Positions 5,322 through 14,885 of a DNA stretch of 24,144 nucleotides are shown here, piece by piece. The stretch is from a virus. Within the stretch, counting starts at the first letter, position 1, and each line of letters begins with the position of its first letter. The stretch covers positions 1-24,144 of the IMG/VR virus record IMGVR_UViG_3300025853_000641; one strand, given 5' to 3'. A program made the translations under genes and the position numbers. The notes beneath the pieces are model-generated. The model worked only from the letters and a program-made list of their open reading frames with translations. It was not told where the DNA came from and searched no databases.

Positions 5322-6317
5322 TTAAATCTTTTTCCAATTGTTGAGTTTCGTCAAGGCTTCCAACTTTGAACAAGTGTTGGTACTTATAATATCATTTATT
5401 TCCGAAATGGCAAGTTTCCCTAGAATCATATCGTTAATGTCTTTATGTCGCATATCATTTGGCCACACGACAAGGTTGTAATCTTTTTCTATTACATCAA
5501 ACATTCTTTTTACAATTTCTTTATTTCTAGGTTCGTTGTCAAATATATATGTCACCTGTTCAGGTGGCACTCTATCAAAAAACATATCAGCGCCACCCAT
5601 AGCCAGACAGTTATCTAAAAATAAAGAGTCAATCGGACCTTCAACGATTTTAATATCGTCTGTCAGATTAACTCTTTCTAATCCATAAATTTTTCGTTTG
5701 TTTTCGTCTAGTTTAATTGTAACATATTTTGGTTGTTCATTGCCAAAGGCACGGCCTTGAAACGCAAATAACTTACCAGTTGTATCGTAAAAAGGAATAA
5801 CTAATCTTGGATGGTCATTCTTTATTACAATATCTTTTTTTACTTTTTTAACTAGTTCGTAAAACTTATCTACTAGATAAAATTTATCAAAGTGTTTTTC
5901 AGGTATCTTCCTGTCTTTAACATATTTTTTAGCTGGGTGTTTATTATCTAGTTCACTTATCTTTTTGTAATTATCTAATATCGTTTTATCTTCAAACACA
6001 GGTTTGAAGTTTGTAAACTTCGGCTTCGGGGTCGAAGGCGCCGAGCGTTTATAGCGTTCTAACAAATATTCTTCATACAGTTTAGGGTCGATAAACTTTA
6101 TAAAATTTGCTAGTGATTGACCTGTACCACAATTGTGGCACTTATAAAACATATCGTTTTTTACACGATAGAAAAAACCTCTGGCCTTGGTTTTATTCTT
6201 TTGAGAATCACCACAATGAGGACATCTAAAATTAAAAAGGTAATCACCTTTCTTTTTAAATAGTGTCAACCGTGATGAAATATCATTAATAAATTTTAAA
6301 TCAATATAACTCGACAT
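5322..6317 (-). CDS. 61: DNA primase, T4 gp61 type
   Basis: A 331-residue primase that makes RNA primers for lagging-strand synthesis, in T4 as a partner of the gp41 helicase. The N-terminal zinc-binding domain has C32/C35 (RCPHCGDSQ) and C60/C63 (CHNCG), followed by KARGFFY as in T4 gp61. The central PRLVIPFYDTTGKLFAFQGRA region leads to the Toprim core: E226 in VEGPIDS, D260 and E262 in IFDNEPRNKEIVKRM, and D293 in HKDINDMI. Order, motifs and length (T4: 342 residues) all match gp61. The start MSSYID parallels the T4 protein start. The gene has a near-perfect sigma70 promoter just upstream and so little leader that no Shine-Dalgarno site fits; translation may be near-leaderless. Confidence 0.93.
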   Translation of the reverse strand: MSSYIDLKFINDISSRLTLFKKKGDYLFNFRCPHCGDSQKNKTKARGFFYRVKNDMFYKCHNCGTGQSLANFIKFIDPKLYEEYLLERYKRSAPSTPKPKFTNFKPVFEDKTILDNYKKISELDNKHPAKKYVKDRKIPEKHFDKFYLVDKFYELVKKVKKDIVIKNDHPRLVIPFYDTTGKLFAFQGRAFGNEQPKYVTIKLDENKRKIYGLERVNLTDDIKIVEGPIDSLFLDNCLAMGGADMFFDRVPPEQVTYIFDNEPRNKEIVKRMFDVIEKDYNLVVWPNDMRHKDINDMILGKLAISEINDIISTNTCSKLEALTKLNNWKKI

Positions 6318-6327
6318 AGCAACTCAC

Positions 6328-6356
6328 ATTATATAGTATCACACTTGATTTGTCAA
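6328..6356 (-). promoter_or_regulatory. Consensus sigma70 promoter for the primase-nrd operon
   Basis: Reading the minus strand, TTGACA (6356-6351), a 17-base spacer and TATAAT (6333-6328) match the bacterial sigma70 consensus at all 12 positions. Transcription should start near 6321, only a few bases before the primase ATG at 6317. This implies transcription by unmodified host RNA polymerase early in infection. It separates the DNA-metabolism operon from the upstream genes. Confidence 0.85.
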
Positions 6357-6357
6357 G
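6344..6357. repeat. Inverted repeat overlapping the -35 box
   Basis: CTTGA-TTTG-TCAAG is a perfect 5-base inverted repeat with a four-base loop, and it contains the -35 hexamer of the primase promoter. It starts right after the stop of the upstream coiled-coil gene. It could be a repressor operator or a weak RNA hairpin at the end of the upstream transcript; no U-run follows, so a terminator is less likely. Confidence 0.5.
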
Positions 6358-6363
6358 CGTGGT

Positions 6364-6792
6364 TTAGGACATCATTTCGATTATTGTTTTGAAGTTTGTT
6401 GAGAGGATCCAACCAATTACCAATGCTCCACCCATAATCAACCATCTGTATTTCTCTATTATACTCACTCTGGCCCCTAAGTCAAGCTTCATTTGCCTAA
6501 TCTCTAGGAGTAATTTTTTCTCTACCTGTTGGATTTCTTTTGATAATTCTCTATGAACGGTATCAATTTCACCTGCTCGTTCTTTTAATTTTTCAAAAAT
6601 AATTTCGTCTATTTGTTCTTGTCTTTGTATCTTTTCTTCGTGTACAGCCAACATAGATTTAATAGAAGTTGATACATCTGTCAACTTCTCAATAGCCGTA
6701 TCCAATCTACTATTGAGATTGTTTACATTTTCTACATCTTTTTTTACACCCTCAATTTGCACTTTGAGGTCTGTTATGCCATTCTCTGCCAT
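6364..6792 (-). CDS. Coiled-coil protein with C-terminal membrane anchor
   Basis: A 142-residue protein, almost all heptad-rich coiled coil (about residues 5-110), followed by one hydrophobic helix at about 116-132 (YRWLIMGGALVIGWIL) and a short tail. The architecture is that of a tail-anchored membrane protein and resembles phage XhlA-type proteins and similar small proteins in marine T4-like phages. It has no enzyme motif. It is the last gene before the primase promoter. A role at the inner membrane, possibly in lysis or superinfection control, is only inferred from architecture. Confidence 0.75.
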   Translation of the reverse strand: MAENGITDLKVQIEGVKKDVENVNNLNSRLDTAIEKLTDVSTSIKSMLAVHEEKIQRQEQIDEIIFEKLKERAGEIDTVHRELSKEIQQVEKKLLLEIRQMKLDLGARVSIIEKYRWLIMGGALVIGWILSTNFKTIIEMMS

Positions 6793-6814
6793 TGATTTTC
6801 TCTCTATGTTACTA

Positions 6815-6898
6815 TCCTTGCAAGGACGAATAATAAGGCCTCAATTTACTTACTTGAAGATTATTTTATATAACCCTTTACTATATTGGCCTATTATT
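6815..6898. repeat. Structured intergenic region with two inverted repeats
   Basis: The 116-base gap 6793-6908 has no convincing gene. It holds a perfect 12-base palindrome TCCTTGCAAGGA (6815-6826), and a longer inverted repeat in which AATAATAAGGCC (6829-6840) can pair with GGCCTATTATT (6888-6898) with one bulge around a loop of about 47 bases. The region forms the leader of the downstream coiled-coil gene, or the end of the upstream transcript. AT-rich boxes are present, but I see no clear promoter. Confidence 0.5.
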
Positions 6899-6908
6899 AT
6901 TTAGTTTT

Positions 6909-7106
6909 TTACGCTGCTATACGGTGACCTAATTCTTTACTTCTTTGTATTTTGTAAAGTTTTTTAAGTGTTCGCCTCCTTCGTCTATCTTTTTGTTTTC
7001 TAATTTCAATCCAATGTAAAAATAATAAGTATAATCTTGTTCTATGGTCTGCTCTTGTTCTTTTTTTAAATACTTTATATAATTTTCGTTGTTGCAATTT
7101 AGTCAA
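6909..7106 (-). CDS. Small highly basic protein, TTG start
   Basis: A 65-residue protein with more than one third Arg and Lys, including a run KQKDRRRRRTLKKLYK, and a hydrophobic middle (RLYLLFLHWIEI). The start is TTG at 7106, chosen because a perfect GGAGGT Shine-Dalgarno site lies five or so bases upstream (ACGGAGGTCAAT before TTG) and no ATG is available in frame. Strong basicity suggests nucleic acid or anionic membrane binding. It lies between the cyclase gene and the coiled-coil gene on the same strand. No family recognised; the ribosome site is the best evidence that it is translated. Confidence 0.6.
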   Translation of the reverse strand: MTKLQQRKLYKVFKKRTRADHRTRLYLLFLHWIEIRKQKDRRRRRTLKKLYKIQRSKELGHRIAA

Positions 7107-7162
7107 ATTGACCTCCGTTGATTAGAAAAAAATGTTTAGATTATATACAGCATACCTCCTTT

Positions 7163-9013
7163 TTAATTCACAGGTTTATAAATTGTTACTAGTTCGTCTT
7201 TACCTTTGACCTTAATTTTATCTAATTCAACTGATTTAATATTTTTCAATTGGTCGTGGGTATAAGATGAATATATTAATGGCTCAATGCCAGTTTCAGT
7301 TTTATAGTTTCTTGTAGAAGCTTCTAGTCTAGCAGCTAAGTTTACTGCGTCACCTATAACTGAATAGTCAAACCTTGTATCACTTCCCATATTACCAACA
7401 ATACAGGTGCCTGTGTTTACACCTGAACCAATGTTAATGGGTGGTAATCCTTTTTCTTTAAATATCTTTTTTAACTTCTCTGTTTCTTTAGCACACTCTA
7501 TACCTGTTTTAACAGCCATCTCTGCGTGATTAGGACAATCAATCGGTGCGTTCCAAAATGCCATGATACAATCGCCCATGTACTTATCAACACAACCACC
7601 ATTGTCAAGGACAATCTTTGTCATTCTATTTAAGTAATCATTTATTAATGCAACAAGTCCTTCGGGGTCATCATTGTTTTTATAGTATTCGGATATAGGT
7701 GTAAATCCTACAATATCCATGAATAAGAAACTCATCTCTTTTCTTTCGCCACCCAATTTTAGTTTACTAGGGTCTTTTTGTAGTATTGCAACTTGTCGTG
7801 GGTCAAGGTAAGATTCAAATTGTTTTCTTATTTGTTGTTTTAGTCTAAACTCTAAAATAAATCTATTAAATACTGCATGAAATCCTACAATAGTTAATGT
7901 AATTATAATCCAAGTACCATCAACTAACATTAATTTCTTATCAAAGAAATATTGAACACCAAGATAGGTAAAGAAATAGAAACCTAATAGTATAATACCT
8001 AACATCCAGTAAGGTAAAAATCTTGCCATTATTACTATAACACAACCTACTAAAAAGGCAACAGCTAATTCAACAATAAATGATATGTCCACCCTCTCTA
8101 TATTTGTGCCATCTATGACTGTCTGAAGTGTATTAGCAATGACAGTATAATCGTATTGTCCGCCTATCGGAGTAGCGACCACACCGCCTAATCCTTCAGC
8201 TTTGACGCCTATTATAATTGTCTTATTCTCTAAACTAATCTCGTTTGTATCTAAATCTGCCAATGATATTTCTGCATATGACTTATTCCATGTCAACCAT
8301 ATTCGAGCATTTGCGTCTGTTTTAATTGTTGCATAACCTGGTACTCTCATAGCAGTAATACCAGCCTCACTTGCTTTTACTTGATAGCTAGGGTCACCAA
8401 CTGCAACTCTAATTACTTCTATAGCAATATTAGGAAATACATCATTACCTATTTTCATAAGTAAAGGCATTCTTCTTACGACACCATCTATTTCAGGTGC
8501 GACATTTGTTGTACCTACACCAGCTGCATTATCGCCAATTTTAGGTATTGGACCTACCATACCTGGCCATTCAAATAAAAATTCTAAAGGATTACCTATT
8601 TTTGCAACACCTCTAGGATATCCGTTTTGTGTTGTTTGATGTGAACCTGTTTGTGATATTACTACAAAGTTGCCATTTAAAGTCATTGCTAATAAACCAT
8701 CACCACCCAATCTATCTTCCTCTGAAAATAAAATAGGCATGACAATAACACCAGCGCCTTGACTTCTTAATTTAATTATTGTTTCTGCTAAGACTTCTCT
8801 GTTCCATGGCCATTGACCATACTTTTCTATAGACTTTTCATCTATAGTTACAATAGCAATGTCTTGTGAGATTTCTTTTTCTTGTGATTGTAGTAAAAGG
8901 TCAAATGATTTTAACCTAAGAATTTCTTTTACTTGTGGGTCTTGTAAACCTATCCAAGTCAAGGCAAACAAGGTAACAAAAGCAAATGTCCAATGTGTAA
9001 ATAATTTCTTCAT
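7163..9013 (-). CDS. CHASE2-domain class III adenylyl cyclase
   Basis: A 616-residue membrane sensor enzyme predicted to make cAMP from ATP. An N-terminal helix (about 6-23) leads to an extracytoplasmic CHASE2 domain (about 30-305; IAIVTIDEKSIEKYGQWPWNR is typical), then three membrane helices (about 311-331, 335-356 and 364-385), and the cytoplasmic cyclase domain (about 420-616). Catalytic residues are intact: metal-binding D433 (FMDIVGFT) and D481 (YMGDCIMAF), base-contact K477, and transition-state N558 and R562 (VNLAARLE). S551 replaces the adenine-contact Asp, the Thr/Ser variant of class IIIb adenylyl cyclases, so ATP is more likely than GTP. AGGA precedes the ATG; the gene follows the PA14-curlin gene by nine bases. 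In bacteria CHASE2 cyclases often neighbour FecR genes, as here. An intact cyclase is very unusual in a phage. Confidence 0.93.
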   Translation of the reverse strand: MKKLFTHWTFAFVTLFALTWIGLQDPQVKEILRLKSFDLLLQSQEKEISQDIAIVTIDEKSIEKYGQWPWNREVLAETIIKLRSQGAGVIVMPILFSEEDRLGGDGLLAMTLNGNFVVISQTGSHQTTQNGYPRGVAKIGNPLEFLFEWPGMVGPIPKIGDNAAGVGTTNVAPEIDGVVRRMPLLMKIGNDVFPNIAIEVIRVAVGDPSYQVKASEAGITAMRVPGYATIKTDANARIWLTWNKSYAEISLADLDTNEISLENKTIIIGVKAEGLGGVVATPIGGQYDYTVIANTLQTVIDGTNIERVDISFIVELAVAFLVGCVIVIMARFLPYWMLGIILLGFYFFTYLGVQYFFDKKLMLVDGTWIIITLTIVGFHAVFNRFILEFRLKQQIRKQFESYLDPRQVAILQKDPSKLKLGGERKEMSFLFMDIVGFTPISEYYKNNDDPEGLVALINDYLNRMTKIVLDNGGCVDKYMGDCIMAFWNAPIDCPNHAEMAVKTGIECAKETEKLKKIFKEKGLPPINIGSGVNTGTCIVGNMGSDTRFDYSVIGDAVNLAARLEASTRNYKTETGIEPLIYSSYTHDQLKNIKSVELDKIKVKGKDELVTIYKPVN

Positions 9014-9022
9014 TATTCCTAT

Positions 9023-10327
9023 TTAGTTCTGTGTGACAGTTGCTGAACAACTTGCCTGTGTACAGTTTTGATATAGATAATAGTTTTGTGAGGTACTACT
9101 ATCTTGCGTCAATGTTACACTAGAAGTATTACCACTTAAATTAATTGTGGCATTGTGGTCACCACTTCCGTCTTGCGTTACATCTACATTATGACTATCA
9201 GTCAAGGTTATTTCTGCATAGTGATTGCCTGTGCCTTTTTGGTTTAAAGCCAAATTATTAGAACCATCTATGTCTATAAATGCCTTTTTATTTCCTGTTT
9301 CTGTCTGGTCTATATCAACATTATTACTATTGCCTGCTATGATAACTTCCATATAATGTTCACCAACATAGTTGATTGCTGATTGGTCTAAATCTACATT
9401 GTTTGATGAACCTGTTATATCTAGTATTGCTCTTTGGTCTTCGTTTTGTGTGACTGCCACATTGTTTGATGAACCAACAATATCTAAACCTAAAACATTA
9501 TCATTACCAATTTGGTCTAAATCTAAAGCATTATTATCACCAGTTATTACAGCTGATGAAGTTAAGTCTGTACCAATAATTAAGTTATCGTCACCGTCTT
9601 GTAATATGTTTAGTGTGTTACTATTTCCTGTTTGTGTAATATAAATTTGATTACCGTTTACGGCCTTATTTCTAGCATTATTGAAACTCGTTGTTTGTGC
9701 ATTTGTTATACCTGAGGTTGGTGTAACTTGTGTTGTTGAAAACCATGAAGTTGGTATATCTGTTTGACAAGAAGTTGAATAAGAGTTAGTCATACAGTAA
9801 TTAATATCTAAAGCGGCACCGCCACCCCATTCATACATCCATACTGTAATTTCATATTGTTGACCAGCAGTCTTTGTTAATGAACCAGTTGCGTTCCAAG
9901 TAGCAGTACCTTGTTGTTGCCAATCTTGTATAACATTTGTACCATCTATGTTCATAAACACACCATCATCAGCCGCTACACCAAAGTAAACTGTTGTCTG
10001 TTGTCCTGTTGTACCTGGCCAAGTGATATAACCTGTGATTTCTACTGCCACAGAATCACTTCTTCCACTATCTAATACCTGACCACTACCCCAATAATAT
10101 CCACTTGGACTTGATATAGTTCCTGTGCTGAGTACACTACCTAAACCGTTTGGACTGGAATTTGAACCATCTGTGTTATAACCTGCCACATTATCATAGA
10201 AAGGAAATTCTAGGCTTGGTGCATAGGTAGTTATAGCATATGTTTTATAATTTAAAACTCCTGCATTTGCTAAAGTTGTAAACAAGAAACAAATTAAAAA
10301 ACTAACGCTGATTAATATAGATTTCAT
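9023..10327 (-). CDS. Secreted PA14-like domain fused to curlin repeats
   Basis: A 434-residue exported protein. Signal peptide: residues 1-22, probable cleavage at ANA|G. Residues about 30-197 look like a PA14/GLEYA-type beta domain: VYFGVAADDGVFMNIDG and YEITVWMYEWGGGAALDI match the 'aDDG..l.idg' and late-strand patterns of that carbohydrate-binding family, with DD at 120-121 as likely calcium ligands. Residues about 226-434 are curlin-type repeats, as in NQIYITQTGNSN and NALDLDQIGNDN, that would fold into an amyloid beta-solenoid. It is thus a candidate fibre subunit or tip adhesin secreted through CsgG. AAGGAG lies just before the ATG. The gene overlaps the end of the FecR gene by 26 bases. 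Repeat assignment is firm; the PA14 assignment is good but by eye. Confidence 0.85.
   Translation of the reverse strand: MKSILISVSFLICFLFTTLANAGVLNYKTYAITTYAPSLEFPFYDNVAGYNTDGSNSSPNGLGSVLSTGTISSPSGYYWGSGQVLDSGRSDSVAVEITGYITWPGTTGQQTTVYFGVAADDGVFMNIDGTNVIQDWQQQGTATWNATGSLTKTAGQQYEITVWMYEWGGGAALDINYCMTNSYSTSCQTDIPTSWFSTTQVTPTSGITNAQTTSFNNARNKAVNGNQIYITQTGNSNTLNILQDGDDNLIIGTDLTSSAVITGDNNALDLDQIGNDNVLGLDIVGSSNNVAVTQNEDQRAILDITGSSNNVDLDQSAINYVGEHYMEVIIAGNSNNVDIDQTETGNKKAFIDIDGSNNLALNQKGTGNHYAEITLTDSHNVDVTQDGSGDHNATINLSGNTSSVTLTQDSSTSQNYYLYQNCTQASCSATVTQN
9026..9652 (-). repeat. Curlin-type repeat array within the PA14 fusion protein
   Basis: About eight degenerate repeats of roughly 20-25 residues. 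Each has two short beta strands, one ending in a Gln (x-V-x-x-x-Q) and one ending in G-S/N-S-N, with Asn at the turns: for example NVAVTQ and ILDITGSSN, NVDIDQ and AFIDIDGSN. These follow the Gln/Asn ladder logic of CsgA/CsgB repeats, but the canonical first Ser is often missing and Asp is enriched. DNA identity between repeats is low, so the array looks old rather than freshly amplified. Confidence 0.8.
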
Positions 10328-11414
10328 TATCTCCTTCTCCTAATTGATAATCTCTAATTTCTACATCACCTTGTGTGACATTTATATTATAACCATTTTC
10401 TTGGTTTAATCTTAATTCAATATTATTGTTTGATTCATCACTTCTTTTCCATACCCAATATGGAGCTTCATCTAATAATATAACACCAAACTCATCTTTA
10501 CCTGTTTTCTTTTTATCTTTACCTTTATCAAATTCGTTTCGCATTTGTAAGGCAAGTTGTTTATTTAATTGTTCTAAAATATCAACTAAAAAGTTTTGGT
10601 CTAAAAAATCTATTTCTAAAGCTGTATTTGCCTCGTCTTCTTCCGTTTCTAATAAGTCAACTTCTAAATCATCAAACTTTAAAAAGTCTATATCTAAAGC
10701 GTTAGCAATTACTTTTAATTTTGACTCTTGTTCAATTGCGTCTTCTAGTTTAGCAGGTTTTTGTACAATTAATAAGTTGTTAATTAAACTTTCATCTAAA
10801 TCCAATATAACTGGTTTTAAAGGATTACTTTCAGGTGTATCAACTTGTGTGGCCTGAAATGCCTGATTTAATATAACTTGGCCTGCGTCACTCTCAACTG
10901 ATATTTCTCCAACAAAACAATATCCATTTGTATCACAACTTGGTAATAATATAATTGTTGATGAACCTAACTCATCAATAGTCATGGCAAAATCTGTACC
11001 TCTAACAGATACAGTTGCTGTTGGTGTTTTTATTGAAATGTTTTGTGCTGAATTTTTGGCAATTTGACCACTAGCATATCTTACAGTACCTAGTGTTGCC
11101 TTTAATGAAAGTTTACCTGTCTTTTGATTTGGGTCGTAAACAAAATCATCAATGATAAGTTTAGAGTGCTGTGTAATGTCAACTCTGGTTTCATCCAGAA
11201 ATTCTATAGCAACTTGACCCTTACCTGTTTTTACCGTGTCGTAAGAGAAGATGTCAAGGTCTTTTTCAACTTTGACACCTCTCTCACCATCTTTTCTGTC
11301 TATTATAGAGTTACCTTTACTTAAAGTAACATCACCAATAGATGTATTACTTCTTGCTGGTAAAGTCGTAAGGATTAAGGCTAAGCATAAAATTATAAAA
11401 TTTATAACTTGCAT
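10302..11414 (-). CDS. Exported FecR-domain protein with curlin-like C-terminus
   Basis: A 370-residue exported protein with an N-terminal signal peptide (about 1-22; MQVINFIILCLALILTTLPA). Residues about 45-150 are a FecR domain: DTVKTGKGQVAIEFLDETRV, then GTVRYASGQIAK and PTATVSVRGTDFAM are the family's hallmark strands. A long acidic, leucine-rich linker follows (about 195-300). The last 40 residues (NNIELRLNQENGYNINVTQ and NEIYINQR) resemble one or two curlin repeat units, so the protein may cap or join the amyloid. In bacteria, exported FecR-domain proteins often neighbour CHASE2 cyclases, one of which is encoded two genes downstream. It may sense envelope state or fibre assembly; this is inference. 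Its Shine-Dalgarno site is weak (AGGA, about 11 bases from ATG). Confidence 0.88.
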   Translation of the reverse strand: MQVINFIILCLALILTTLPARSNTSIGDVTLSKGNSIIDRKDGERGVKVEKDLDIFSYDTVKTGKGQVAIEFLDETRVDITQHSKLIIDDFVYDPNQKTGKLSLKATLGTVRYASGQIAKNSAQNISIKTPTATVSVRGTDFAMTIDELGSSTIILLPSCDTNGYCFVGEISVESDAGQVILNQAFQATQVDTPESNPLKPVILDLDESLINNLLIVQKPAKLEDAIEQESKLKVIANALDIDFLKFDDLEVDLLETEEDEANTALEIDFLDQNFLVDILEQLNKQLALQMRNEFDKGKDKKKTGKDEFGVILLDEAPYWVWKRSDESNNNIELRLNQENGYNINVTQGDVEIRDYQLGEGDNEIYINQR

Positions 11415-11450
11415 ATATTATTAATCCTGTTAATAGTAAAAAACTTATCA

Positions 11451-12140
11451 TTAGTCCCTCTGTATAATGTCAATGTCAGCGTTGTCGCCACTTGTTGTTA
11501 AGTTAATTAAGTTATCATTGATACCTGATTGTGTAATATCAACATCAGCTGTACCACCTGTATGAGTATGTACCAATGTATGACCATTTACATCACCATT
11601 ACCATCTATGTCAATTAAGTAATTATTAGTATCACCGTTTACTGTGATTGTTAATACAGCGCTTGTGCCGTCAATAGTAGCAGCTACTGTATTTGAATCA
11701 GAGCCTGTGTTACCGACAATATCAACATCAGCATTTGAAGCGTCTGAAGTTTCGCCAATATCTAAATCAATATCGTTTGAGTTACCTGTAAAGTTAACTA
11801 CAGCATTGACAGTTCCACATGATGAGTTGCCGTTTGTACTGTCACAATTTAAATCAACATCATTCGAATCACCTTGTAGGTTAATAACACCTGTATATGT
11901 CGCACCATTAATTTGATAAGTGATAACATTCGAATTACCAACTTGGTCTATATTCAAATTAGTTGTTGCGCCAGTTGAGGCAGATGATGTTGTACTATTA
12001 CCGATTGTATTGTTTTCACCGTCTTGTAAAATATCTAAAGTTAAACTTGCACCAGATTGAGTAACATAAATGTCATTCGCCAATATTGGAGAGGTAATCA
12101 TAAACATAACAAACATAACGAAGCTTATTATTGTTTTCAT
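11451..12140 (-). CDS. Curlin-repeat amyloid subunit (CsgA/CsgB-like)
   Basis: A 229-residue exported protein with a signal peptide (about 1-21; cleavage near ILA|N). The mature part begins at once with curlin repeats (NDIYVTQSGASLTLDILQDGENN) and is rich in Asn, Asp, Ser, Thr and Gly throughout. Later repeats (NLNIDQVGNSN, VDITQSGINDN, ADIDIIQRD) keep the Gln/Asn ladder, while the middle (about 75-165) has lost most Gln and is Asp-rich. Two Cys near residues 99 and 107 may form a disulfide. With no other domain it is the simplest candidate for the main fibre subunit. It follows csgG by 20 bases and has an AGGAGG Shine-Dalgarno site about 10 bases before ATG. Whether it plays the CsgA or CsgB role cannot be told. 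Confidence 0.85.
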   Translation of the reverse strand: MKTIISFVMFVMFMITSPILANDIYVTQSGASLTLDILQDGENNTIGNSTTSSASTGATTNLNIDQVGNSNVITYQINGATYTGVINLQGDSNDVDLNCDSTNGNSSCGTVNAVVNFTGNSNDIDLDIGETSDASNADVDIVGNTGSDSNTVAATIDGTSAVLTITVNGDTNNYLIDIDGNGDVNGHTLVHTHTGGTADVDITQSGINDNLINLTTSGDNADIDIIQRD

Positions 12141-12160: not shown

Positions 12161-13009
12161 CTAGCCTCTTATAGCGTTGCTATGAACCTTTGGTATTTCT
12201 ATTTCCTTCTCTTTATATTTCCAAAAACCTTGTTTCTCACCTGATTGTATCAGTTGTAAAACTGCAAACTCGATAGCAGTCCGTATTGCATAGTTAACAG
12301 GTTCGTTTACGGCCACGCCTGTTTCTAATTCTAACGCTTTTGTACCCATGTCTAAAAACCTGAATACATCTCCACCACTAGAATGACTAGCAATGGTTTT
12401 AGTTACATTAGTTGTCAATAATATTTCACCAGTTTGTACTGATACAATTCTCATTGATACAGTTACCTGGTCTACTCTATATTGCTCACTCAAACCTATG
12501 CCAAAATATCTTGCACCTTGACCACCTGATTGTGTGTTACTATCGTAACCTACAATACCACCTTCAATTATCAAGCCTGCAAATAACATTGGCTTTAAAA
12601 CTTGTTTTATTTCTTGTTCACCATCATATAAATCTCTTGTACTTCTAATCAATTGTCTTTCTTTGACAAGATTGTCTAAACCATTTCTTTCGACAACTTG
12701 AAACCATGTACCATTTGATACAGATTTCAAAGCATTAATTACAAATACATCACTACCTTGTGTTACGGCAGTTGATAGTTGAGAAAACTTTGTACTTGGT
12801 TTTCTCTGACCTGTTAAGTCTGTAAACCGATAGACAGCAATACTAATTTGTGGTTGGTCTAACTCCGGTAAATCTTTTAATAATTCATGCGTAGGAGTAC
12901 CTTCTACATAAGGCATACTACCTTTAAAAGTGCTAGTGTTTTTCGAAGTTGTAGAGGCACAACTTGACAACACTATTCCCATAATTATTACCAACAATGC
13001 TTTTAGCAT
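12161..13009 (-). CDS. csgG: Curli secretion pore lipoprotein CsgG
   Basis: A 282-residue outer-membrane lipoprotein that forms the nonameric curli export channel. Lipobox LSSC places the lipidated Cys at residue 17. The match to E. coli CsgG runs end to end: ISIAVYRFTDLTGQRKP, WFQVVERNGLDNLVKERQ, IIEGGIVGYDSN, QGARYFGIG, QYRVDQVTVSMRIVSVQTGEIL, VFRFLD, NEPVNYAIRTAIEF and GFWKYK. Length is as in E. coli (277). The loop that forms the pore constriction (residues 72-78, between KP and STAV) differs: E. coli has Y51, N55 and F56 in six residues, while here there are seven (STKFSQL), so the gate is altered. AGGAG with a TAATG overlap couples it to the small membrane protein upstream; csgF is one gene further upstream. 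Confidence 0.96.
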   Translation of the reverse strand: MLKALLVIIMGIVLSSCASTTSKNTSTFKGSMPYVEGTPTHELLKDLPELDQPQISIAVYRFTDLTGQRKPSTKFSQLSTAVTQGSDVFVINALKSVSNGTWFQVVERNGLDNLVKERQLIRSTRDLYDGEQEIKQVLKPMLFAGLIIEGGIVGYDSNTQSGGQGARYFGIGLSEQYRVDQVTVSMRIVSVQTGEILLTTNVTKTIASHSSGGDVFRFLDMGTKALELETGVAVNEPVNYAIRTAIEFAVLQLIQSGEKQGFWKYKEKEIEIPKVHSNAIRG

Positions 13010-13290
13010 TAATCTCTCCTTGCGTCTTCTTTACCATCAGCTCTACTAATTCTTTCTTCATCTTGCCTTAAATTTAAGGCATCTGAAATCTGTATGTCTA
13101 ATTTAATCATATCATTATTCATATTCTTAACTCTATTCTCTAATCCCATAATGATACCGTGCATACCAGAAACTTGGCCTACGACAGATTCTAAAATGTA
13201 TTTTATAATTAAGAAGATGAAAAAACCCATAACAACCGAAGCGGCTACGGGCAATCCAAATTTAACTAGTATATCAAAAAATAATTCCAT
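13009..13290 (-). CDS. One-helix membrane protein with coiled coil, between csgF and csgG
   Basis: A 93-residue protein with an N-terminal membrane helix (about residues 11-34 after MELFFDILVKFG) and a C-terminal amphipathic coiled coil ending in a charged tail. It is a paralogue of the protein at 13857-14111: both share the plan M-short-DIL-x-(K/R)-(F/Y)-G, helix, then a G-M-x-G-(I/V)-(I/L)-x-G-L pattern and an ND-x-I-x-L segment. I chose the ATG at 13290 because it aligns with that paralogue; an upstream in-frame TTG would overlap csgF. The csgF stop and this ATG are one base apart. Architecture resembles small phage holins of the BhlA/UviB type. A pore partner of the curli channel or a holin are both possible. 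Confidence 0.75.
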   Translation of the reverse strand: MELFFDILVKFGLPVAASVVMGFFIFLIIKYILESVVGQVSGMHGIIMGLENRVKNMNNDMIKLDIQISDALNLRQDEERISRADGKEDARRD

Positions 13291-13291
13291 A

Positions 13292-13780
13292 CTAGAATAC
13301 AAAATCTCCTATTGGCACACTCATACTTGTAACTGTGCCATCTTCAGCCGTAATGGTTAATGTAATAATCTCTGTTGTGGTATCTTTGACCCAATATATG
13401 GTCGCACCCTCAATCTCTGAGGTACCACTTGTTGGACAAGTTGTTGTACTTGAATCACAACTTGTACCAAACATATTGTCAACCAGCTGTTTAGACAGGT
13501 TGGCATAAATTCTACTTTCCACATTAGCAATAAACTTGTTAATTGTGGTGTTTTTTTCTGCTCTTTCAGCGGCCGCAGCTGCCGATTTAGCGTCATCTAT
13601 ATTTTTCTGTTTTCTTTGTTCTTGTAACTGGTCGACAGAAAGCACATGGTTTGAATAACCGTCACCACTAAAGGCTGGGTTTTTAAAGCCATGTACCAGT
13701 TCGGATGCTAGTATTTTTGTATTCAGGAGAGTTAATGTAAGTGCCACTACTAACATCATTGTTTTAAATGATGTTTTCAT
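13292..13780 (-). CDS. csgF: Curli assembly factor CsgF
   Basis: A 162-residue exported protein with a signal peptide ending about residue 26 (KILAS). The mature N-terminus has LVHGFKNPAF; the FxNPxF core (F32-F37) matches the FRNPNF of E. coli CsgF, the segment that inserts in the CsgG channel and forms a second constriction. An Ala/Lys-rich helix (about 55-85) follows, then a region with two Cys (CDSSTTTC) and a C-terminal beta part ending IPIGDFVF, like the ISVSG...DF end of CsgF. In E. coli CsgF holds the nucleator on the cell surface at the pore. The gene leads the curli block, with TATAAATA just before its ATG and no Shine-Dalgarno site visible. It is longer than E. coli CsgF (138) mainly in the linker. 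Confidence 0.85.
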   Translation of the reverse strand: MKTSFKTMMLVVALTLTLLNTKILASELVHGFKNPAFSGDGYSNHVLSVDQLQEQRKQKNIDDAKSAAAAAERAEKNTTINKFIANVESRIYANLSKQLVDNMFGTSCDSSTTTCPTSGTSEIEGATIYWVKDTTTEIITLTITAEDGTVTSMSVPIGDFVF

Positions 13781-13856: not shown

Positions 13857-14111
13857 TTACTTTTTTGACTTTGTTCTCTTTTCGTTCTCACGCACGGTCA
13901 ATATGGTGTTTAACTTTGAGCGTAAACGAATTAAGTCATTGTCCAGCATACGAATTCTGTCTATGAGACCAATTAGCACACCATTCATTTCACCTAATTT
14001 TACTTTAATCTGTGTGGTAATATATATGTAAATAAAATAAACAAACCAACCTAGACCTATAGCGGCCAATGTTGCAAATCCATATCTGTTTAAAATATCA
14101 ACAATATCCAT
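13857..14111 (-). CDS. One-helix membrane protein with coiled coil, holin-like
   Basis: An 84-residue protein with an N-terminal membrane helix (about 11-33, GFATLAAIGLGWFVYFIYIYI), then an amphipathic coiled coil (LGEMNGVLIGLIDRIRMLDNDLIRL) and a Lys-rich tail. It is a paralogue of the protein at 13009-13290 and the two flank csgF. Its ATG overlaps the stop of the outer spanin gene (TAATG) with AAAGAG just upstream, so it is the last gene of the lysis block. The size and plan fit BhlA/UviB-like phage holins. With another holin-like protein encoded at 14890-15048, this one could be the holin, an antiholin, or a partner of the curli pore. Confidence 0.72.
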   Translation of the reverse strand: MDIVDILNRYGFATLAAIGLGWFVYFIYIYITTQIKVKLGEMNGVLIGLIDRIRMLDNDLIRLRSKLNTILTVRENEKRTKSKK

Positions 14112-14491
14112 TACTCTTTAGTTTCTTCTTCGCTCTCATAATATTCTTTATACTTGTCTAATAAAGCATTAGTTTCTACTAATTTATTTCTAATCTGAGC
14201 AAAGTTCTTTGCTAATAGTTCAAAGTCTTTATCTGTTAATCCCCATAATACCGGGTCAATACCATCAGCCTCTAATTTAGCAAACACTTCAGCTGCATTT
14301 TCACTGGTAATAATATGCCAATGAATTTGTTCCATTTGTAATGGAGTTGGTTTTTCTAAATTAAGTTTAGCTCTAGGTACTTCTTCTTTAAATATACTTA
14401 ACTCTTTTACTCCAGCACAACTAGTAAGGAATATAGTTAGGGTTAGCAATAGAAGGACACTCTGTATTGATTTCAGACTTCTTCGTAGCAT
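14111..14491 (-). CDS. Outer-membrane spanin-like lipoprotein (Rz1-like)
   Basis: A 126-residue lipoprotein with signal TIFLTSCAG; the lipobox LTSC places the lipidated Cys at residue 25. The mature part is mainly helical with conserved-looking PTPLQMEQIHWHIITSENAAEVF and a helix toward the C-terminus. The ATG lies inside the 3' end of the upstream Rz-like gene (71-base overlap in another frame), the classical arrangement of overlapping inner and outer spanin genes. Together they would span the periplasm and fuse the two membranes at lysis, so the host is Gram-negative. It is larger than lambda Rz1 and not proline-rich, so the outer spanin call rests on lipobox plus gene overlap. Confidence 0.78.
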   Translation of the reverse strand: MLRRSLKSIQSVLLLLTLTIFLTSCAGVKELSIFKEEVPRAKLNLEKPTPLQMEQIHWHIITSENAAEVFAKLEADGIDPVLWGLTDKDFELLAKNFAQIRNKLVETNALLDKYKEYYESEEETKE

Positions 14492-14885
14492 TAATCTCTT
14501 TCTCCGTCAATGGTGAACCACTTGCGATTTCTATACATCTGTTAGCCTTATCACTAGCAGAGTTAGTAATTCTTTCAATTGTTTTTGTTTTTTCAATTGC
14601 AAGTAAACCAACATCTCTGTTTTTCTTATTAAATCGTTTATCTAAATCGGCAAAATCTGTTTTTAGTTTGCCAATTAGTTCGTTCATTTCTTTGTTAGCC
14701 ACAAGTATGGCCTCAAAATCTTTTTTTTGATTTTCAATTAGTGTTTTTTGGTCAGCGATTGCTGATTCCATTTTGATAGCGTTTGCTTTTAAAATTGCAT
14801 TATCTTTTTGCAACTTCAAAACATAGAAGCCACCGCCGGCTAAGGCGGTGACTATAAGTCCTATAAAAAATAATCTAATTCCCAT
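14421..14885 (-). CDS. Inner-membrane spanin-like protein (Rz-like)
   Basis: A 154-residue protein with one N-terminal membrane helix (about 4-23) followed by a long periplasmic coiled coil (about 25-75) and a C-terminal region with two Cys (NRCIEIASG and NTECPSI). This is the plan of i-spanins: type II membrane protein, coiled-coil shaft and a C-terminal part that meets the outer-membrane lipoprotein. The gene starts four bases after the holin-like gene with AAGGA as ribosome site, and the lipoprotein gene begins inside its 3' end. The family assignment is by architecture and context. Confidence 0.8.
   Translation of the reverse strand: MGIRLFFIGLIVTALAGGGFYVLKLQKDNAILKANAIKMESAIADQKTLIENQKKDFEAILVANKEMNELIGKLKTDFADLDKRFNKKNRDVGLLAIEKTKTIERITNSASDKANRCIEIASGSPLTEKEINATKKSEINTECPSIANPNYIPY

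Follow-up and report, generated by a model that had tools for sequence, protein, structure and literature searches.

A membrane class IIIb-type adenylyl cyclase in a phage curli module and its linkage to FecR-domain proteins and two export systems

Background

SAR11 podo- and myophages have been described in which genes for an adenylate cyclase and a FecR protein adjoin those for CsgF, CsgG and curlins (PMC9599517). The passages of that paper that deal with this module provide phylogeny and metatranscriptome evidence that the curli genes are expressed, and hold that FecR and the cyclase are not part of bacterial curli operons; these same passages make no mention of CHASE2, of a T1SS variant or of a missing host receptor. 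The cyclase is annotated in the Pelagibacter phage HTVC008M and in four isolates of the Methylophilales phage Melnitz, and it has its own PHROG (phrog_35576, 1.3e-271). The function of the curli module has been called a mystery in the literature, and a pinholin-like role has been proposed for CsgGF in Melnitz (PMC9004378).

FecR-domain proteins encoded with CHASE2 sensors have also been described in bacteria. In S. meliloti, the gene of the FecR-domain protein SMc02177 (NsrA) adjoins that of the CHASE2 cyclase CyaD1, and NsrA together with CyaK or CyaD1/D2 converts an external signal to cAMP, which is read by Clr. One study of this species found smc02177 to be dispensable for shoot-signal perception, and later work identified NsrA as the receptor. 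In Burkholderia, a FecR protein and a CHASE2 histidine kinase are encoded in one operon named for biofilm regulation.

Results and discussion

A viral contig related to Pelagibacter phages

The DNA analysed here (24,144 nt of the IMG/VR record IMGVR_UViG_3300025853_000641; hereafter the window) comes from a viral record whose closest relatives are the Pelagibacter phages HTVC008M and Mosig. Its primase is closest to that of Mosig (67%) and its DUF1353 protein to that of HTVC008M (78%), as is its cyclase, for which gp019 of HTVC008M (YP_007517885.1, adenylate/guanylyl cyclase) displays the same architecture with 67% identity over 99%. Since the nearest relatives are Pelagibacter phages, the host is probably SAR11. 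Both the neighbouring genes and these relatives are of phage type, which rules out the contaminating bacterial contig that would have spoken against a phage-encoded cyclase, as proposed in an earlier reading of this DNA made without database searches (the sequence-only reading). The novelty implied by that reading was nevertheless too high, the gene being annotated in HTVC008M and Melnitz and discussed in the relevant passages of PMC9599517, and the module in the window is a further instance of the published pelagiphage curli-FecR-cyclase module. In Mosig, no homologue of the cyclase, CsgG or FecR was found, and close relatives of the window phage may lack the cyclase.

Architecture and catalytic residues of the cyclase

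The CDS located at 7163..9013 on the minus strand starts with ATG and encodes a CHASE2 adenylyl cyclase of 616 aa, as assigned by Pfam, a residue check, an AlphaFold model and superposition on PDB structures. Pfam matches far over the cut-off were obtained for CHASE2 at residues 17-322 (E=1e-41) and for Guanylate_cyc at residues 425-610 (E=3.8e-17). In the model (mean pLDDT 87.1), the CHASE2 domain (about 25-300) is flanked by one N-terminal membrane helix (7-24) and three C-terminal ones (311-332, 335-360 and 367-399) that precede the cyclase domain (421-616); a hydropathy scan taken alone detected the C-terminal helix group only. Pfam and the model thus agree on the layout of a CHASE2 receptor, and the CHASE2 domain and four membrane helices of the sequence-only reading are both recovered, in a predicted topology that would place CHASE2 in the periplasm and the cyclase domain in the cytoplasm.

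The six residues D433, K477, D481, S551, N558 and R562 are all present where they had been read, each within the expected motif, with the metal-binding D433 and D481 and the transition-state N558 and R562 that characterize class III nucleotidyl cyclases. The signature of class IIIb is a Lys paired with Thr or Ser, rather than Asp, as the substrate-specifying pair. K477 with S551 conforms to this pattern so that the earlier assignment, made from Ser551, stands and the protein, as judged from these residues, is a class IIIb-type adenylyl cyclase. A guanylyl cyclase is less likely because position 477 is occupied by Lys, as opposed to the Glu found there in the guanylyl cyclase Cya2 (2w01). In a structure comparison covering the cyclase domain only, this domain superposed on CyaB of P. 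aeruginosa (3r5g; Z 25.0; rmsd 2.1 for 184 residues at 38% identity), and it also matched further class III cyclases. Such features predict that the enzyme would be active.

The cyclase gene closes a curli module

The cyclase gene ends a co-directional module (csgF, small TM protein, csgG, curlin-like, FecR, PA14-curlin, cyclase) in which genes overlap or almost touch, all on the minus strand. CsgF, the curli anchoring factor (13292..13780; Pfam CsgF 5.2e-13), and CsgG, the outer-membrane curli export pore (12161..13009; Pfam CsgG 9.6e-52), are followed by a curlin-repeat-like fibre subunit with a signal peptide (11451..12140), whose match to NCBIfam CsgB (1.1e-3) is below cut-off and which is syntenic with a gene annotated as CsgB in HTVC008M. 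Next come an exported FecR-domain protein (10302..11414; FecR at residues 59-148, Pfam 6.5e-10) and, 9 nt upstream of the cyclase, a second curlin-repeat protein (9023..10327; Pfam Curlin_rpt 5.3e-5; NCBIfam CsgB 2.1e-6, under cut-off) that carries a PA14 domain (residues 76-173; Pfam 8.2e-9). This contiguous, co-directional set of csgF, csgG, curlins, FecR and cyclase is that of the pelagiphage T8SS module, and the csgF-csgG-curlin-FecR-curlin-cyclase order of HTVC008M is the same; unlike in HTVC008M, csgF lies between two small TM genes in the window, and the flanking genes also differ. Canonical bacterial curli systems also include a csgE gate and a csgD regulator; nothing resembling csgE stood out in the annotation of nearby genes in the window, which is a fragment, and neither an RNA family nor a tRNA was found in it.

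Two of these products have features that may relate to the fibre. The N-terminal PA14 of the second curlin-repeat protein suggests a fibre bearing a ligand-binding head. The FecR protein, whose predicted structure has a mean pLDDT of only 34, holds conserved curlin-like segments in its C-terminal 45 residues, as indicated by a C-terminal comparison and an alignment, and therefore may join or cap the fibre.

The small TM and coiled-coil proteins 'hol2' (13009..13302, minus strand, 97 aa) and 'hol1' (13857..14111, minus strand, 84 aa) are paralogues without a significant Pfam match; whether export is by curli or by T1SS (see below), nearly all loci have them beside the module. They may be the 'histidine kinases' mentioned in the relevant passages of PMC9599517; both are too short for a kinase domain, and none is present. 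Beside the curli module, at 14111-14885, overlapping genes for a TM/coiled-coil protein and a lipoprotein resemble a spanin pair and have no profile match.

Such neighbours could suggest that lysis is timed by the cyclase acting with the small membrane proteins and the pores formed by CsgGF, lysis timing being one of the roles raised in the sequence-only reading. The adjoining small TM/coiled-coil genes, the spanin-like membrane-protein and lipoprotein pair and the role proposed for CsgGF in Melnitz are in line with this, but the profile search identified no lysis gene, the DUF1353 gene that is near the module in the window is apart from it in HTVC008M and Melnitz, and a mechanism tying cAMP to lysis is lacking here. 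We regard a lysis timer as very improbable.

Conservation and selection

In IMG/VR, relatives of the cyclase are found in at least 596 stretches. Across 83 phage sequences, D433, K477 and D481 are invariant, and S551, N558 and R562 deviate in Melnitz only or are absent from one truncated row. When the comparison was widened to 234 homologues (residue 477 being unresolved in two rows), the phage signature was DKDSNR except in Melnitz, which has DKDDSR, and position 551 of the bacterial relatives is Ser in 70 and Thr in 8. Informative pairs gave a dN of about 0.01-0.12 for the cyclase domain at a dS of 0.2 to over 1, with dN/dS mostly about 0.03-0.13; along the protein, conservation is highest in this domain, and the membrane part is the fastest-evolving. 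The number of relatives, the conserved residues and purifying selection indicate that the cyclase is not there by chance, and, judging by sequence, phages retain a working enzyme. The catalytic integrity claimed by the sequence-only reading thus appears sound, with six residues present and a cyclase domain under purifying selection, and a degenerate or pseudo-cyclase is ruled out for the window protein; Melnitz, however, is substituted at two catalytic positions.

The Melnitz cyclase (L082:8998-11046) belongs to the same module and has 49% identity to that of the window, from which it differs by an Asp at 551, a Ser replacing the catalytic Asn558 and a C-terminal extension, the host being OM43. 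This enzyme is possibly altered or inactive.

FecR and the cyclase are associated with two export systems

A second scan of IMG/VR was run with the cyclase of a phage-like contig (L084) as query, and its best 80 further loci were considered. Many of these adjoin TolC, ABC and HlyD genes of a T1SS, in which a cadherin or RTX adhesin gene precedes TolC. Such uncultivated phages, found among L163-L242 (for example L207:2480-12617 and L209:1545-12467), combine a FecR-cadherin/RTX adhesin with a CHASE2 cyclase: an N-terminal FecR domain was detected by Pfam in 6/6 distinct full T1SS adhesins tested (L191, L207, L209, L181, L204 and L188), and the T1SS-linked cyclases also retain the six catalytic residues. 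Baseplate connector and other phage families are present in two T1SS-type records (G003 and G004), and T4 Gp23 was not found in the T1SS-type records or G002. A comparison with 50,697 phage records gave no match to the TolC-like outer-membrane gene of this T1SS, and a search of the literature, which was covered in part and thus weighs little, returned no report of a phage T1SS.

When the best 80 hits of each of the two scans were combined, all 33 phage contigs in which the sequence upstream of the cyclase extends for 6 kb or more carried a FecR domain and an export system, curli in 25 and T1SS in 8, a count that represents few lineages and not 33 independent events. The link to fibres suggested by the sequence-only reading is therefore found well beyond the window. 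Curli-linked and T1SS-linked cyclases form separate clades in the tree, and two phage contigs (L165 and L228) have a curli module with two different CHASE2 cyclases, the former also having T1SS genes. FecR and the CHASE2 cyclase are thus retained while the export system is swapped between curli and T1SS.

A bacterial curli locus with the phage gene order

One among the best 80 bacterial relatives, a contig of a Caulobacteraceae MAG (L083), displays csgF-csgG-curlin-curlin-FecR-CHASE2 cyclase at 5992-12049, in the phage order and surrounded by genes that were named from their sequences as glycosyltransferases, an S9 peptidase and a TonB receptor. At least one bacterial curli operon hence includes FecR and the cyclase, which is at odds with what the relevant passage of PMC9599517 holds. 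In three other alphaproteobacterial curli loci, neither FecR nor a cyclase was found within roughly 8-9 kb on each side, which rules out this layout as the general alphaproteobacterial curli arrangement and makes the Caulobacteraceae case a single one, compatible with transfer in either direction. In the tree, its cyclase is placed beside that of a podophage (L261), joining two long branches, so this position is unsure.

The Caulobacteraceae locus raises the alternative that the cyclase is inherited cargo of a bacterial curli operon, kept for a structural purpose such as anchoring FecR to the membrane while its enzymatic output is of little use. The identical gene order, a host with no known receptor (see below) and the persistence of the gene in Melnitz despite the D551 and S558 substitutions are compatible with this. 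On the other hand, the cyclase domain is better conserved than the rest of the protein and is under strong purifying selection, and the six residues are invariant in the other phages including the T1SS-linked lineage. We consider inherited cargo unlikely.

cAMP receptors and cyclases are nearly absent from SAR11

SAR11-family genomes were picked by means of probe SAR11-441R, both hits of which also match three more SAR11 probe sites exactly. Among the 197 genomes obtained, the cNMP_binding domain occurs in 12 and HTH_Crp_2 over the cut-off in 2, and a class I cyclase in none. A class III cyclase over the cut-off was detected in 2/197; in both cases (L249/L260 and L250/L261) the gene is carried by a podophage-type contig that harbours the curli-FecR-cyclase module and was binned with the SAR11 genome. 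One of these contigs (L260) has a terminase and a portal. A cyclase native to SAR11 is thereby rejected for the genomes tested, and AMG surveys should beware of contamination by podophage-type contigs such as these, binned inside SAR11 genomes. No cNMP-binding domain was found in seven phage records even at E<=10, some of these records being perhaps fragments, so that a phage-encoded receptor of this kind is set aside for the genomes tested.

These results bear on the simplest scenario, in which the phage cyclase lifts cAMP and switches host promoters via Crp, and which corresponds to the 'direct grip on host signalling' of the sequence-only reading. The catalytic machinery is intact, and in Alphaproteobacteria taken together Crp-type proteins are frequent (cNMP_binding in 287/385 genomes), so that a phage of another host could use one. 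Neither the phage records tested nor most genomes of the SAR11 family, the probable host lineage, however, display a Crp-cAMP pathway, and the only two class III hits over the cut-off in that family sit on podophage-type contigs with the curli module. A simple take-over of host cAMP signalling thus has no known receptor and appears improbable; the near-absence of Crp-type receptors from the genomes tested means that an as yet unrecognised phage or host receptor would be needed.

A proposed role in sensing fibre export

The explanation that we favour, with some reservation, is that this membrane class IIIb-type adenylyl cyclase would be the signalling arm of a phage surface-fibre export module and would report the state of export via FecR and CHASE2. 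FecR-domain partners of CHASE2 sensors in S. meliloti and Burkholderia offer bacterial precedents, although the study in which smc02177 was dispensable speaks against the idea. The predicted periplasmic CHASE2 domain probably responds to, and presumably contacts, the FecR domain of its exported partner, which could allow it to read whether a fibre or adhesin waits in the periplasm, passes out or is anchored. The signal would then run from FecR and CHASE2 to the cytoplasmic cyclase, whose dimerisation or activity would be altered with a resulting shift in cAMP level, and cAMP would act on a target other than a Crp-type host receptor, namely an unrecognised receptor of the phage or host. A broader and more tentative possibility is that, in marine phages, the FecR protein and the CHASE2 cyclase form a portable sensing unit joined to two unrelated export systems, and that in SAR11, which has no known cAMP pathway, this unit installs a new second messenger with a receptor of a new kind.

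The surprise lies in the recurrence of FecR and a CHASE2 cyclase with two export systems, and in the absence of a receptor, rather than in the presence of the gene, since the cyclase was already known in pelagiphage-type phages (HTVC008M, Melnitz and those covered by the relevant passages of PMC9599517). What is new here is the linkage to FecR and export in 33/33 contigs, the Caulobacteraceae gene order and the near-absence of cAMP machinery in SAR11. For the curli module, the cyclase supplies a measurable output, cAMP, and the FecR-CHASE2 pairing across two export systems provides a concrete hypothesis for the input of CHASE2. That phages of a lineage nearly devoid of cAMP receptors and of cyclases of its own maintain a cAMP synthase by strong purifying selection implies a new cAMP receptor, or else some non-classical use of cAMP, still to be found. 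Either could be tested with HTVC008M and HTCC1062, which are available as a cultured pair.

Comparison with known sensing systems

CyaK, CyaD1 and CyaD2 of S. meliloti resemble the cyclase of the window in being CHASE2 cyclases with a FecR-domain partner, NsrA. They differ in being encoded on a bacterial chromosome together with a Crp-family receptor, Clr, and NsrA has been described as an outer-membrane beta-barrel protein and not as a component of a fibre. The BiofilmReg operon of Burkholderia likewise encodes a FecR-domain protein next to a CHASE2 sensor, the output of which is a histidine kinase with a response regulator, as opposed to the cAMP expected from the phage module.
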